A DNA stretch of 64,000 bases, taken from NCBI GenBank assembly GCA_900319235.1, contig ONNR01000005.1:1-64000 (forward strand), in the 5' to 3' direction. The DNA is from an uncultured Prevotellaceae bacterium (lineage in GTDB: Bacteria > Bacteroidota > Bacteroidia > Bacteroidales > UBA3663). The notes below the pieces were generated by a model. That model ran no database searches, was not told the origin of the DNA, and saw nothing but the letters and a program-made list of their open reading frames with translations. The first letter of the stretch is position 1; every line of letters begins with the position of its first letter. The position numbers and the translations under genes are program-made. Of the stretch, positions 4,400 through 10,525 are shown piece by piece.

Positions 4400-4473
4400 A
4401 GGGAAAAGTTTGGAATAAAAAATTTTTTGAAGGAAAAATAGTGCATTTGTTTTGCGATTTGCCCGAAAATGCC

Positions 4474-4481
4474 TATCTTTG
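4474..4481 (+). promoter_or_regulatory. Promoter -7 box for the helicase/DUF1848 unit
   Basis: TATCTTTG with a TTTG-containing -33 region around 4446-4454. Transcription would begin near 4487, which rules out the upstream in-frame ATG at 4452 and selects the ATG at 4509. Confidence 0.72.
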
Positions 4482-4508: not shown

Positions 4509-7500
4509 ATGAGCTTAAAGGTTTATAAGATATCAGATTATAATCATCGAGTTGAAGAAAAGCAGTTTGAATCAATTCGGCAGTTCCTGTCAAAACATTA
4601 TGCTTTTCGCAATGAGGATGCAATACTCATAGGCAATTACAACATTGAGGGTGTCGAACTTGATGCTCTGCTTATTGCACCAGGTGGTTATCGGATCCTT
4701 GAGTTCAAGAATTGGGGTGGCGACATCATTGCACGTGAGAACGGCTCGTGGACTTCCAACGGCAAGATAATTGAGGGCGGCTCAGGAAAAAAGACTCCCT
4801 ATGAGCAAATCCGCCAGAACAAAAGCAGGGTGACCAAAGGGTTGGGTACGCTATTGGGCGCAACTCACGATATGGTCTCGGCAGCCATCATCTTCTGGCA
4901 AAAATCCAACATCGACAAAAGCCAGATATCAAGTACAGTCAGCCTTTGGCTTCATATATTTGATAACCAGCATCTGGAAAACATCCTGGAAGGGATGAAC
5001 AATTCCAGGCTCACCAATGATTTTATTCGTTCCATTCCCGAGAAACTGAAAATCGAGGAATTCGATATCGATAAACAGAAAGTCAGCCAATCTGTCCCAG
5101 ATGAAATTTATGAACCGGAGGCAGCAACCAATTTCTTTGAGGAACTGGAATATGCTTTGCGAAGTGTGCCCGACTACGAATCGGTTTACGATTCATTGAA
5201 CAGGGTATTCCAGATGAGCCTTAATCAGAAAACAGCGGGATCAAGATTGAATCTGGGAGGTACTTTTGCCAAACTTGACTATATTCTGAAAGAGATGCAG
5301 GCTTCCAAGGCTTTGTATCGAGCAATCAATGACACAAGAAATCGCCTAAGGAAACGGGAAGGGTATTCTGAGCTGGAGCTAAAAGACAATTATCTTTATG
5401 ACCTGAAGAACATCTGCAAATTCATTTCCTTTATATACAATGCCGAGATTCCCAAATCGTTGTCGGATGTATTTCCTGCAGATAGGGAAAAGGCTTCAAT
5501 AGGATCGTTGGTAGGAGAATATCTGCGAGTAATTGTTGAACAATGGGATGATGAATATGTGTGGGTACAGACAGAAGAGGATATGGGAGAGGAAACGGTA
5601 AAGGTCTGCTATGCACACAATCGCATCTTCCAGGACACGGATTGGTCTTATCTCAAGGGATTCTTCTATGCAGGAGCACAGTTGAATCTGATTCGTCCTC
5701 GTGTAGAGGAGAATGTCATCTACCCTGAACTTATTATTTTTGAACCTGATTATCTCATAAACATTTCGACGGTAGCACGTTGCTTTACCAATTATGCAGA
5801 TTCTCCTTTTGTAGATCTGATAAAGAAGATAGAGCCTGTAAAATCCAGTCAGGCTATTGAACTTGGTAATTTCGCCGGCCAATTGCTCGATGAGGAAATA
5901 CACCAATTGCCCAATACCCATTCCTATAACCAGAGCGTGAAGGATTTTTTCAAGGGACATGCAATTAACCTCTTGTCGGCAGGAATTGATAAGAATTTCC
6001 ATACGGAAGCACAAAACCAGAAACGCAACATCACCCAAGCCCTGAGAGTGGATCTGCCACCCATGGTATCCCGGTTCAATCCTCGGGAAGGGATGGTCGA
6101 ACCTTCGTTTGTGTCGGAGATGCTTGGACTTCAAGGTCGTATGGATTACCTTCAGCTTGACTATAAGATATTGTTTGAGCAAAAGTCGGGCAAGGGAGCA
6201 TTCCCCTATGACGATTTCATCAAGCCCAGAAGTACGGAGGAGCATTTGATCCAGTTGACGTTGTATATGCTTCTAATCCGTTACAATTATCGCGAGAGGT
6301 ACGAAAAGAACAAGCAGGAATTGCACGCTTTCCTTCTTTATTCAAAATATAAGGAATCCTTGCTGAATGTGGGATTCTATCCTCAGGAAATCTGCAAGGC
6401 CATTCAAGTAAGAAATGGGTTGGCATACGTAGAGAGCCTTTATACGAAGGAGAACGGCTTCCGTATCCTGGAGTCATTGACGCCAGACCTTCTAAATATG
6501 AAGAAAGCCGATAATCCTCTATGGGTAAGGTTCCAGCGTCCCCAGATTGAAGAAGTATTGGCTCCGATGAAAAAGGCCTCAGACCTGGAGAAGGATTATT
6601 TCTTCCGATTCATGACCTTCATAGCCAATGAACAGACATTATCGAAGATAGGCAGCAAGACCAAGGAGAATTCAGGCTTTGCTTCCATCTGGTACGATTC
6701 GCTTGATGAAAAGAAACTCGCCGGCAATATCTATGAAAACCTGACACTTGTCTCCCCTAATGATATTACCCAGGGAAGCATCGAAAAGGTCATTTTATCC
6801 TATTCTGAAACAAAAGAGAATGATATGTCGAACTTCAGAATAGGAGATATTGTCATCCTTTACCCGTATGAAAAGGGGAAGGAACCTGATGCAAGGAAGA
6901 CCATGGTCCTGAAATGCTCGATTGAAGAACGGACTACCGATAAAATTGTTTTGAAACTGAGAGCTCCGCAATCAGATAGTCGTGTATTTCTCCATGAGAA
7001 GGGAAAACTGTGGGCAATAGAGCCTGATTTCATGGAATCCTCGTATAGCTCTCTGTATAAGGGTATGTATGCTTTCCTTTCTGCTCCAAAGACTCGACGT
7101 GATCTCCTGTTGATGCAGAGAGAACCGGAAACTGATGCATCCGTGACATTGAAACTGGATCATGGAAAATTCAATGATCTGGCCCTAAAGGTAAAAGCCG
7201 CCAAGGATTTCTTCCTGATCATAGGTCCTCCCGGCACCGGCAAGACATCCTTTGGCTTGATGACTACCCTCCTGGAAGAACTTGCTGAAGAAGGGACATC
7301 CGTGCTGCTCCTGTCGTACACCAATCGAGCTGTAGATGAGATATGCAGCAAGTTGAAAAAGGAAGGACTGGATTTCATCAGAATAGGAGTTGAGCAATCG
7401 TGTGGCCTTGAATATCGAGATAATCTATTAAGTATCAGAGCCCAAAATTGCCAGAACCTTGACCAACTCAGAGATATCATCCAGAAAGGCAGGATATTTG

Positions 7501-9389
7501 TAGGGACGACGACATCACTCAATGCCAGCATTGCATTGTTCCGTCTGAAGCAATTCTCCCTGGCAATAATCGATGAGGCATCCCAAATACTCGAGCCCCA
7601 TCTTATAGGATTGTTGAGCGCACATAATAACGGCGTGCCCGCTATCCGAAAATTCGTGATGATAGGCGACCACAAGCAGTTGCCAGCTGTCGTTCAGCAG
7701 GAGCCCAAGGTTTCCAGGGTACATAATGTCAAGCTGAACGAGATAGGGCTTATGGATTGCAGACTGTCCCTGTTCGAAAGATTACTCAACAAATATGGCA
7801 GGGACGATAGTACTACCAGAATGCTGACCCAGCAGGGTCGTATGCATCACGAAATCGCCTTGTTCCCTAATTATACATTCTACGAGAATAGGCTTGAAGA
7901 GGTTCCAGGCCTTGACCGGCAACTGGCGAAGCTGCCTTTGGAAGGATCTGGAAGAAATGGTATAGATGACCTGTTGCGCACGAGACGAGTAGTTTTCCTC
8001 GATGCAGAACGTCCTCAGCCGATGGTTTCGGAGAAGGTCAATCTGATTGAGGCAGAAATGATAGCAGCTACTGTCCTAAGGATTCTTGAAATGGAAAAGG
8101 AGGATTTCAATCCTGATAAGACAGTAGGTGTGATTGTGCCTTACCGCAATCAGATAGCTGCCGTGAGGAGTGCGATAGACAATAAGGGAACTGCAGCATT
8201 GCACAATATCACGATTGATACTGTGGAGCGTTATCAGGGTAGCCAGCGCAAGTATATCATTTATGGTTTTACGGTACAGAAATACTATCAGTTGAATTTT
8301 CTTGCCGGCAACTCTTTCGAAGATGACAAAGGCAATATCATTGACCGCAAGCTGAATGTCGCTATGACACGCGCCGAGGAACACTTGATTCTGGTAGGAA
8401 ATTCAGAACTGTTGGCCAACAACTTTACCTTCTTCAAACTCATTGAATTCATCCGCAGCAAGCAAGGATTCTTCAAAATCGGCAAGGATGAATATGTTAC
8501 GGGAAATTTCAAGATTCCCCAATTCCATCCGGAAGAACTGTCAATCAGCGATGCGGTATTTTCGGTGTCACCACTTTTCAAGAAGGCATTTGACAAGCAT
8601 ATCGCAACCCCACTGAAGGAAATGTCAGATGATAATTGGCCTAAACTTGTGATGGGACACGATATGGCGACCAATCTGAATCTGATTGGATATGGCCGCA
8701 TCAACTTCTCGGACCAATTGCAGATTTTTGGAGGTCTTTCGCCTCAGGAACAGGTACTGTTGTATTGTTACTTTATTATGCGTCAGCATTATTGCAGCAG
8801 TTGTAACCTGCTTTCAAGTTACAGGGAGTGGCTGAATGTGCAAATCAAAGGAGTTCACGGCAGAGTTCACTTGATAGATATCGGTTGTGGGCCTGCCACG
8901 AGCGGTGCGGCTTTTGCTGAGCAATTCCTTGATATGGCACCCAATATGGTCTATACGGGAATTGATGTATCGGCATCGATGAAGAATATGGGCAAGTGTC
9001 TCATCGACGAGATGTTTGATGGCAGATTGAACTATCAATGGAAGGAATCCCTCGGGGAACTGAAAAAGGATTTCTGGGAGGGCTGCTCAGAGACCTCTTC
9101 ACTTGTGATATTCAATATGTCGTATTTCTTCTCAAATGTAAAAGCCGAATTTGCAGAAGGACTGGCAAGACAAATCGTCGAAATCATCAAGACGTATAGC
9201 CTGAATAGATATGTTTTCCTTATCCAGCATTCTGAATGTGACCATGACTTGAACTCCTACAAGGTGTTCAGGAGGGTCTTGTCGACTGAAACTCTTGCAA
9301 TTAAAGAAGAAAAGGCATCCTTCTCCTATCGATTGGGATATAAGGAACAGCATTTGCCTTTCTTCTATGATATCCTGACGAATAAATAA
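4509..9389 (+). CDS. NERD / PD-(D/E)XK-like / SF1 helicase / methyltransferase fusion protein
   Basis: 1626 residues. Order: a NERD domain (about 14-115: ELDALLI, ILEFKNWGG, PYEQIRQNK); a weakly conserved middle; a RecB/Cas4-like nuclease core (GRMDYL with Asp 546, then FEQKSGK with Glu 557 and Lys 559, then QLTLYMLL); and a UPF1/Dna2-type superfamily 1 helicase. Helicase motifs: Walker A GPPGTGKTS 906-914, DEAS at 1022, GDHKQLPA, TVERYQGSQRK and AMTRAEEH with Arg 1288. The last ~190 residues are a class I SAM methyltransferase (IDIGCGPA, 1456-1463, then a YTGIDVSASM strand). All key residues are present. No signal peptide; cytoplasmic nucleic-acid processing is inferred. The DUF1848 gene follows after 9 bp. 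The locus is AT-richer than its flanks (one 60-base line in the pair is 35% GC against 53% in tamB), which suggests transfer. I do not know this architecture as a named system; a defence role is inference. Confidence 0.85.
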   Translation: MSLKVYKISDYNHRVEEKQFESIRQFLSKHYAFRNEDAILIGNYNIEGVELDALLIAPGGYRILEFKNWGGDIIARENGSWTSNGKIIEGGSGKKTPYEQIRQNKSRVTKGLGTLLGATHDMVSAAIIFWQKSNIDKSQISSTVSLWLHIFDNQHLENILEGMNNSRLTNDFIRSIPEKLKIEEFDIDKQKVSQSVPDEIYEPEAATNFFEELEYALRSVPDYESVYDSLNRVFQMSLNQKTAGSRLNLGGTFAKLDYILKEMQASKALYRAINDTRNRLRKREGYSELELKDNYLYDLKNICKFISFIYNAEIPKSLSDVFPADREKASIGSLVGEYLRVIVEQWDDEYVWVQTEEDMGEETVKVCYAHNRIFQDTDWSYLKGFFYAGAQLNLIRPRVEENVIYPELIIFEPDYLINISTVARCFTNYADSPFVDLIKKIEPVKSSQAIELGNFAGQLLDEEIHQLPNTHSYNQSVKDFFKGHAINLLSAGIDKNFHTEAQNQKRNITQALRVDLPPMVSRFNPREGMVEPSFVSEMLGLQGRMDYLQLDYKILFEQKSGKGAFPYDDFIKPRSTEEHLIQLTLYMLLIRYNYRERYEKNKQELHAFLLYSKYKESLLNVGFYPQEICKAIQVRNGLAYVESLYTKENGFRILESLTPDLLNMKKADNPLWVRFQRPQIEEVLAPMKKASDLEKDYFFRFMTFIANEQTLSKIGSKTKENSGFASIWYDSLDEKKLAGNIYENLTLVSPNDITQGSIEKVILSYSETKENDMSNFRIGDIVILYPYEKGKEPDARKTMVLKCSIEERTTDKIVLKLRAPQSDSRVFLHEKGKLWAIEPDFMESSYSSLYKGMYAFLSAPKTRRDLLLMQREPETDASVTLKLDHGKFNDLALKVKAAKDFFLIIGPPGTGKTSFGLMTTLLEELAEEGTSVLLLSYTNRAVDEICSKLKKEGLDFIRIGVEQSCGLEYRDNLLSIRAQNCQNLDQLRDIIQKGRIFVGTTTSLNASIALFRLKQFSLAIIDEASQILEPHLIGLLSAHNNGVPAIRKFVMIGDHKQLPAVVQQEPKVSRVHNVKLNEIGLMDCRLSLFERLLNKYGRDDSTTRMLTQQGRMHHEIALFPNYTFYENRLEEVPGLDRQLAKLPLEGSGRNGIDDLLRTRRVVFLDAERPQPMVSEKVNLIEAEMIAATVLRILEMEKEDFNPDKTVGVIVPYRNQIAAVRSAIDNKGTAALHNITIDTVERYQGSQRKYIIYGFTVQKYYQLNFLAGNSFEDDKGNIIDRKLNVAMTRAEEHLILVGNSELLANNFTFFKLIEFIRSKQGFFKIGKDEYVTGNFKIPQFHPEELSISDAVFSVSPLFKKAFDKHIATPLKEMSDDNWPKLVMGHDMATNLNLIGYGRINFSDQLQIFGGLSPQEQVLLYCYFIMRQHYCSSCNLLSSYREWLNVQIKGVHGRVHLIDIGCGPATSGAAFAEQFLDMAPNMVYTGIDVSASMKNMGKCLIDEMFDGRLNYQWKESLGELKKDFWEGCSETSSLVIFNMSYFFSNVKAEFAEGLARQIVEIIKTYSLNRYVFLIQHSECDHDLNSYKVFRRVLSTETLAIKEEKASFSYRLGYKEQHLPFFYDILTNK

Positions 9390-9398
9390 AAGCGGCTT

Positions 9399-10463
9399 AT
9401 GGGATTTTCTTGGCAAAAAGTACCTTTGCAATTGGAGGATTCCGGAGAATGGGTGGAGGCCCAAGCTCCGGAAATCATATCTGCAAGTCGCAGCACCGAC
9501 ATTCCAGCTTTTTATGCCGATTGGTTTTTCGATAGGCTTAAAAAGGGTTATTCGGATTGGATAAATCCGTTCAATGGCAAGAAAAGCTATGTGTCATATC
9601 AGAATACGAGATTCATCGTCTTCTGGTCCAAGAATCCATATCCCTTGCTTAGTCATCTCGACCAATTGAAGGAGATGGGCATAGGCTGTTATATACAGTA
9701 TTCCCTGAATGATTACGAAAACGAGGGACTGGAAAAAAATGTGCCCAACCTGGATTTCAGAATCAATACATTCAAATTGCTAAGTGAGAAACTAGGTTCA
9801 GAAAGTGTGATCTGGCGCTTCGATCCGCTTTTGCTAACAGACGATATTGATATAAATAGCCTGCTGCATAAAATTGAACGTATCGGGAGCCAATTATATG
9901 GCTATACAGAGAAACTCGTTTTCAGTTTTGCTGATATTGCAATTTACAGCAAGGTAAAGCAGAATCTAATTAAAAACGGCATTGAAGCCCGAGAGTGGAC
10001 AGAATCACAAATGAGAGAATTCGCTCAACGATTAAGTGAATTGAATAATAGCAAAGGCTGGAATTATGAACTTGCAACATGTGGTGAGAAGATAGACTTT
10101 GGTGAATTCAATATAAATGCTAATCATTGCATTGACTATAGTCTTATAGCAAGAATAGCCCACGACGACAAACCCCTGTTGAATTACATTGGTGCAACCA
10201 TAAAGACAAGGGAAGCAGATCTGTTTGGAAATTATGAACCTTTGCCTGCAGATGCCATAGAACTGCCAAATGGAAGATATATTATCAGGGATAAAGGCCA
10301 ACGAGATTATTGCGGTTGTATGAAAAGCAAGGATATTGGACAATATAATACCTGCATTCACCAATGCGAATATTGCTATGCAAATACAAGCAAGCAAATG
10401 GCTATGTTGAATTACAATGAATATTTGAAGAATCCCTATAAAGATACAATAATCGGACTTTAG
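9399..10463 (+). CDS. DUF1848 family protein with C-terminal radical-SAM-like cysteine cluster
   Basis: The 354-residue protein matches the DUF1848 family along its length: ISASRSTDIPAFYADWF near the N-terminus, FIVFWSKNP and YIQYSLNDYE, then WRFDPLLLTDDI. The C-terminal CGC...CIHQCEYCYAN contains Cys 305, 307, 319, 323 and 326. The last three form a CX3CX2C motif like that of radical-SAM enzymes, but it sits at the C-terminus instead of the N-terminal part of the fold. An iron-sulfur cluster is expected; the reaction is unknown, and the family has been compared with spore photoproduct lyase-like proteins. It lies 9 bp after the helicase fusion and shares its low GC, so the two very probably form one transcription unit and arrived together. 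Confidence 0.82.
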   Translation: MGFSWQKVPLQLEDSGEWVEAQAPEIISASRSTDIPAFYADWFFDRLKKGYSDWINPFNGKKSYVSYQNTRFIVFWSKNPYPLLSHLDQLKEMGIGCYIQYSLNDYENEGLEKNVPNLDFRINTFKLLSEKLGSESVIWRFDPLLLTDDIDINSLLHKIERIGSQLYGYTEKLVFSFADIAIYSKVKQNLIKNGIEAREWTESQMREFAQRLSELNNSKGWNYELATCGEKIDFGEFNINANHCIDYSLIARIAHDDKPLLNYIGATIKTREADLFGNYEPLPADAIELPNGRYIIRDKGQRDYCGCMKSKDIGQYNTCIHQCEYCYANTSKQMAMLNYNEYLKNPYKDTIIGL

Positions 10464-10517
10464 TGCAAAAAATATGTAAACTTTGAGAAAAAATTTGGCG
10501 GGAAATAAAAAAACGAT

Positions 10518-10525
10518 TATCTTTG
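10518..10525 (+). promoter_or_regulatory. Promoter -7 box for the tamB-tamA unit
   Basis: TATCTTTG, with TTTGG at about 10494-10498 as a -33 candidate. The leader to the ATG at 10580 is about 50 nt and is mostly the 9-bp array. Confidence 0.7.

Follow-up and report, generated by a model that had tools for sequence, protein, structure and literature searches.

The Pfam text on the DUF1848 family (PF08902) presumably likens the C-terminal cysteines of the family to the radical-SAM motif. In the PADLOC collection, DUF1848 and NERD-helicases are placed among RT-associated genes; the models for DUF1848, NERD-helicase, and methyltransferase are listed separately, and no named system combining them was found. 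To our knowledge, the radical-SAM enzymes known in defence are the prokaryotic viperins. In the open-access literature (subscription papers and preprints were outside this scope), no paper named DUF1848 or the PLuB system, and none was found on the gene set described below.

The window analysed here is a stretch of 64,000 nucleotides from an uncultured Prevotellaceae bacterium (contig ONNR01000005.1, positions 1–64,000), which contains a DUF1848 gene directly behind a helicase gene. We lean, at slightly better than even confidence, towards reading the unit as a permuted radical-SAM protein in a foreign two-gene unit, which belongs to a recurring gene set with nucleic acid as its target in genome conflict.

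Organization of the helicase–DUF1848 unit

The unit and its flanking promoter-like sites were composed of the following features.

4451–4481, forward strand: promoter-like site TTTG-N19-TATCTTTG of the helicase–DUF1848 unit, a pattern match of the Bacteroidota primary sigma type
4509–9389, forward strand: NERD–helicase–methyltransferase fusion (open reading frame from TTG 4452; likely start at ATG 4509, residue 20)
4581–4844, forward strand: NERD nuclease-related domain (residues 44–131)
6078–6404, forward strand: Cas4-like segment (residues 543–651), a weak match of 18.9 bits
7182–8405, forward strand: SF1 helicase core, AAA_19/AAA_11/AAA_12 (residues 911–1318)
8628–9389, forward strand: C-terminal class I SAM methyltransferase domain with the motif IDIGCGPA
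9399–10463, forward strand: DUF1848 gene (354 residues; PF08902), a predicted circularly permuted radical-SAM protein
10494–10525, forward strand: promoter-like site ahead of tamB, 3' of the helicase–DUF1848 unit, a pattern match

The open reading frame at 9399–10463 matched PF08902 in a profile scan over 262 of 262 positions with 302.5 bits (E 4e-90; curated cut-off 30.5). The helicase stop codon ended at 9389, which left the 9-bp gap that the original prediction had reported. The AT-rich character noted there (35% GC in the line starting at 10021 against 53% in a tamB line) was also reproduced. Positions 10021–10080 had 35% GC, and the values for the genes were 39% (DUF1848), 44% (helicase), and 53.5% (tamB).

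The N-terminal region of the fusion shared 39% identity over 156 residues with the NERD region of a methyltransferase from another DUF1848 cluster (L085). The methyltransferase domain was modelled with moderate confidence (pLDDT 62), and the structure matches listed for it were class I SAM methyltransferase folds, with a best Z of 12.8. The domain did not match a classical DNA methylase family of restriction systems; its profile matches were weak and of a generic class I methyltransferase kind. The domain was not found in 196 related genomes or in the viral contigs searched.

When the window was scanned with the Bacteroidota-type promoter pattern TTTG-N18–22-TAnnTTTG, six matches were obtained in 64 kb against 0.63 expected. 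One match was located just 5' of the likely helicase start and another before tamB, and none fell at the helicase/DUF1848 junction, where the original prediction had taken independent promoters as the sign of two unlinked genes. From this distribution of pattern matches, helicase and DUF1848 probably form one transcription unit that is separate from tamB.

The gene order endonuclease, helicase, and tamB was common to four congeners (G003, G004, G006, and G007) and was partly present in a fifth (G011). The helicase of the congeners was 1141–1171 residues long and carried no NERD domain, no methyltransferase domain, and no DUF1848 partner. When the window was compared with the congeners, the flanking genes were 78–96% identical, whereas the helicase core was only ~51% identical and was as distant from the congeners as from another family, represented by G155. 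The GC content of the native helicase was 55–56% in five congeners, against 44% in the window. Given these differences in composition and identity, the helicase–DUF1848 unit is most likely a foreign replacement of the native helicase gene. Accelerated evolution of the resident helicase is less likely than replacement, in view of the same GC difference and of a core distance equal to that between families.

Elsewhere in the window, a tandem repeat at positions 1599–1914, encoding (Ser-Thr)n or (Asp-Val)n, adjoined the lectin-like proteins at 770–2913.

Conserved cysteines of DUF1848

Eight cysteines were present in the DUF1848 protein, at residues 97, 228, 244, 305, 307, 319, 323, and 326. The conserved ones formed three groups.

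10080–10130, forward strand: Cys228 and Cys244, invariant
10311–10319, forward strand: CGC pair, Cys305 and Cys307, invariant
10353–10376, forward strand: CX3CX2C, Cys319, Cys323, and Cys326, invariant, the counterpart of the cluster loop near the N-terminus of radical-SAM proteins

These seven residues were invariant in two alignments of DUF1848 relatives (17 of 17 and 33 of 33 sequences), and Cys97 was not. Because all cysteines other than Cys97 were invariant in both alignments, the pattern is not a product of chance. The CX3CX2C cluster and the CGC pair of the original prediction were thereby confirmed; Cys228 and Cys244, which it had not listed, were equally invariant and possibly form a second, putative metal site with Cys305 and Cys307. 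The family occurred here in Bacteroidota, Clostridia, one cyanobacterium, one archaeal plasmid, and phages.

DUF1848 as a predicted circularly permuted radical-SAM protein

The structure of DUF1848 was predicted with AlphaFold2 using 33 sequences (pLDDT 91.7; pTM 0.90). A Foldseek search of the PDB with this model gave no significant match; the best hit, a glycoside hydrolase (E 1.8e-3), was likewise not significant and was not used. Two matches below 1e-3 were found by Foldseek in viral models, and the DUF1848 profile had no match among PDB sequences. When the model was re-aligned with VIA-align, the 18 best chains (Z values of 7.8–9.3) were, with few exceptions, radical-SAM enzymes, including Elp3, SuiB, biotin synthase, NifB, and pyruvate formate-lyase activase (9.3, 9.0, 8.4, 8.3, and 8.1, respectively). 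These chains matched the predicted model in order from strand 2 onward. In pyruvate formate-lyase activase, for example, residue 63 onward, past the cluster loop, was aligned to residue 21 onward of the model. Taken alone, Z values of 8–9 are middling, and the sequence comparison below is the stronger evidence for permutation.

The DUF1848 profile matched a classical, PA0069/Rv2578c-like radical-SAM protein of a Roseburia plasmid as two pieces in swapped order. The position of the cut was examined with hhalign, using the DUF1848 alignment and an alignment of 28 PA0069/Rv2578c-like proteins. In the native order, the cysteine segment was aligned alone over 31 columns (P 6.7e-7) and the body separately over 168 columns (P 1.2e-5). 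When DUF1848 was re-cut at any position from residue 235 to residue 310, which brings the C-terminal cysteine segment to the front, one continuous alignment of 227–229 columns was obtained (P ~3e-11), whereas cuts at 140–220 gave a partial gain and cuts at 20–120 had no effect. Unrelated templates gave a flat response, and 30 column-shuffled templates reached a maximum score of 26, against 86. With individual radical-SAM proteins from other families, taken from the genome of the window, re-permutation brought hardly any gain or none, which argues for a kinship of DUF1848 to the PA0069/Rv2578c-like branch.

The Pfam Radical_SAM profile matched DUF1848 with 14 bits, below its cut-off of 29.5, and over residues 317–335 only. 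This is a matter of the annotation threshold, since a permuted chain cannot be aligned end to end, and membership rests on the other tests. Re-permuted DUF1848 sequences gained nothing over the native ones in a Pfam scan, which shows that family-level profiles are needed. The protein had the CX3CX2C motif and, in the predicted model, a beta/alpha barrel topology in permuted order. Its last segment, comprising strand 1, the CX3CX2C loop, and the next helix, corresponded computationally to the opening segment of ordinary radical-SAM domains. Judged from the model and the alignments, membership of DUF1848 in the radical-SAM superfamily, in circularly permuted form, is thus a well-supported prediction.

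The original prediction had left a choice between a permuted and a convergent iron-sulfur enzyme. Convergence would mean that an unrelated TIM barrel carries the cysteine cluster at its end as a zinc or iron-sulfur site, with which the non-significant Foldseek E-values against the PDB and the sub-threshold Pfam match are consistent. However, a single radical-SAM family was matched by both the body and the cysteine segment, with their order swapped, and the joint P of 3e-11 appeared only after re-permutation. We therefore regard convergence as very improbable; the permuted alternative stood, on both the structure comparison and the cut-point test with its controls.

Recurrence of the gene set

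A conserved pairing of DUF1848 with the helicase family of the window was considered and rejected. The two families were carried by 34 and 35 of 198 genomes and were adjacent in the window alone, so the co-occurrence count proposed in the original prediction yielded no second genome. The two-gene system suggested there does not hold for this helicase family; in a broader form it stood, since operons repeatedly joined DUF1848 to class I methyltransferases and to SF1 helicases from outside this family, fusions included.

Of the 183 operonic genes in 83 non-redundant DUF1848 loci, 15 carried a methyltransferase motif and 11 an SF1 helicase, compared with 5 and 1, respectively, of 722 distant genes. 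By family profiles, which were built partly from these same loci, partners were assigned to 28 DUF1848 loci (some of them near-duplicates), mostly with gaps of 2–12 bp. Because the partner families were partly defined in DUF1848 loci, the reverse test was also run. Two methyltransferase profiles matched 4 and 7 of 196 genomes, and all 11 carried DUF1848, against 34 of 198 overall (p 8e-10). Three of the 11 genomes had not contributed to the profiles; two of them had the same four-gene order, and in the third (G069) the methyltransferase and DUF1848 were on different contigs.

Several arrangements were observed. DUF1848 accompanied a methyltransferase–helicase fusion in L034 and L075, which belonged to the same supported DUF1848 clade as the window and were the closest analogues of its unit. 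The order DUF1848, SF1 helicase, 2CompART-type protein, and methyltransferase was found in L036, L037, and L235, and in L168, where it was ended by the contig end; in L236, which was of this type, DUF1848 remained as a remnant at the contig start. The 2CompART-type ADP-ribosyltransferase protein was thus present in five DUF1848 loci, two of which were shown to have a 2CompARG domain as well. In L031 and L085, the order was methyltransferase, helicase, large protein, and DUF1848, and the methyltransferase of L085 carried a NERD region. In viral contigs of Clostridia-like type (L094–L103), DUF1848 was located behind other methyltransferases. The methyltransferase families beside DUF1848 were treated as diverse because their mutual relatedness was mostly weak. 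Computationally, DUF1848, methyltransferase, and SF1 helicase constitute a recurring, shuffled gene set, in which NERD and an ADP-ribosyltransferase/glycohydrolase protein are optional members.

Two further kinds of protein were noted in these clusters. DUF1848-type methyltransferases with C-terminal sulfatase-modifying-factor (FGE) domains or BspA-type leucine-rich repeats were encoded at L167:9009–11873 and L237:943–2973, and the fused parts look like swappable recognition domains. Large unassigned proteins, one with a topoisomerase-type zinc ribbon, were encoded at L031:3962–6364, L040:5112–7238, and L085:5558–7981. They may stand in for the ADP-ribosyltransferase protein; homology between the two large partner kinds (c22 and the 2CompART family) was considered and was not supported.

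About two thirds of the sampled DUF1848 loci had neither partner, and DUF1848 was near-universal in two genera. For these two reasons, DUF1848 is not dedicated to the gene set and has a wider role.

Defence and repair genes near DUF1848

Several DUF1848 clusters had defence genes as neighbours, namely HsdM (L040), HsdR (L103), HsdS (L102), a Mrr-type endonuclease (L168), YhcG (L237), and an adjoining retron-type reverse transcriptase with an AAA ATPase (L162). In another genus, umuD-umuC was located upstream of DUF1848, and umuC was present in 8 of 30 short loci. An AlkB gene was found near DUF1848 on a Planktothrix plasmid. These neighbourhoods suggest a link with nucleic acids, in a setting of conflict or damage.

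Other arrangements were also recorded. umuD-umuC followed by DUF1848 was seen in L170, L172, L173, L174, and some of L117–L143, from a genus where DUF1848 was near-universal. On the Roseburia plasmid (L150:1773–9986), genes for a macrodomain hydrolase, Sir2, and DUF1848 were consecutive; close to them lay a radical-SAM peptide cluster of the ACGX type and another radical-SAM gene that was PA0069-like. The viral contigs L104–L114 shared a conserved gene order, in which DUF1848 had two small genes on one side and ParB-like genes on the other.

Proposed function

The best reading of the gene set is a nucleic-acid-directed conflict system, for defence or repair, with a chemistry that we infer. The helicase/NERD part would engage foreign or damaged DNA or RNA. 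DUF1848, with a [4Fe-4S] cluster and SAM, would then carry out radical chemistry on a base, either modification or adduct repair, jointly with the methyltransferase. The contexts with helicase, NERD, restriction-modification, reverse-transcriptase, and umuDC genes raise the likelihood that the unit modifies or repairs nucleic acid, as originally suggested.

Defence against mobile elements is somewhat more likely than pure repair. In its most specific form, which we put forward tentatively, the gene set would be an undescribed anti-mobile-element system in which a dedicated methyltransferase and the circularly permuted radical-SAM enzyme together install or remove a radical-chemistry modification of nucleic acid, steered by the NERD/SF1 helicase and gated in some versions by the ADP-ribosyltransferase/glycohydrolase protein. 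Repair by damage reversal, with a radical-SAM enzyme that reverses a lesion or adduct and a helicase and methyltransferase that assist it, is a somewhat unlikely alternative; spore photoproduct lyase is a radical-SAM enzyme that reverses a lesion in this manner. The umuD-umuC operon link, the AlkB gene on the Planktothrix plasmid, the ADP-ribosyltransferase/glycohydrolase, macrodomain, and Sir2 partners, and methyltransferases that did not match classical DNA methylase families are all in keeping with repair, whereas patchy, mobile, and shuffled partners and restriction-system neighbours are more typical of defence. It is improbable that DUF1848 works alone as a housekeeping modification enzyme, acting for example on tRNA or a metabolite, and that its position behind the helicase in the window and next to methyltransferases at other loci reflects coincidence or generic mobility. 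The absence of partners from most loci and the near-universal presence in two genera would fit such an enzyme; however, two methyltransferase families were confined to DUF1848-carrying genomes, the gaps were as short as noted above, five loci shared the helicase–ADP-ribosyltransferase order, and there were two further fusion pairings.

The recurring gene set beside defence genes is directly assayable for phage defence, DNA repair, or a new nucleic-acid modification. Furthermore, a widespread, uncharacterised family is assigned to an enzyme class that can be tested, with a chain permutation that is unusual.

Comparison with known systems

In PADLOC, a collection of models for defence-linked proteins, the DUF1848 protein matched RTasDUF1848 with 122 bits, and the methyltransferase domain of the window matched C3a159 (methyltransferase). 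The NERD-UvrD proteins of sister loci matched a model among RTasNERD-Hel and C3a187 (NERD+UvrD). Among the neighbours of the unit in the window, which were read as open reading frames and in part scanned by profile, no reverse transcriptase was noticed.

The resemblance to Mokosh and PLuB was confined to the helicase part. The helicase core of the window matched MkoA of Mokosh with 172 bits; Mokosh is defined by MkoA with a PLD nuclease, and scans of the fusion, of DUF1848, and of two flanking genes showed no PLD domain. The PLuB helicase profile (NF040671) matched the same core with 188 bits, below its cut-off of 999. Other components of Mokosh or PLuB were not seen with the window helicase.

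DarTG and other ADP-ribosylation conflict systems resembled the five sister loci with a 2CompART-type protein. The window differed from them in having no ADP-ribosyltransferase protein, and DUF1848, helicase, and methyltransferase were additional to such systems.

The PA0069/Rv2578c-like radical-SAM proteins were similar to DUF1848 in the barrel body and the CX3CX2C loop, over 229 columns after re-permutation. They differed in the position of the cysteine segment, which is C-terminal in DUF1848, and in the four extra invariant cysteines of DUF1848 (Cys228, Cys244, Cys305, and Cys307). If the defence reading is true, DUF1848 would represent a second, differently built kind of radical-SAM defence enzyme beside the viperins, which would be notable.
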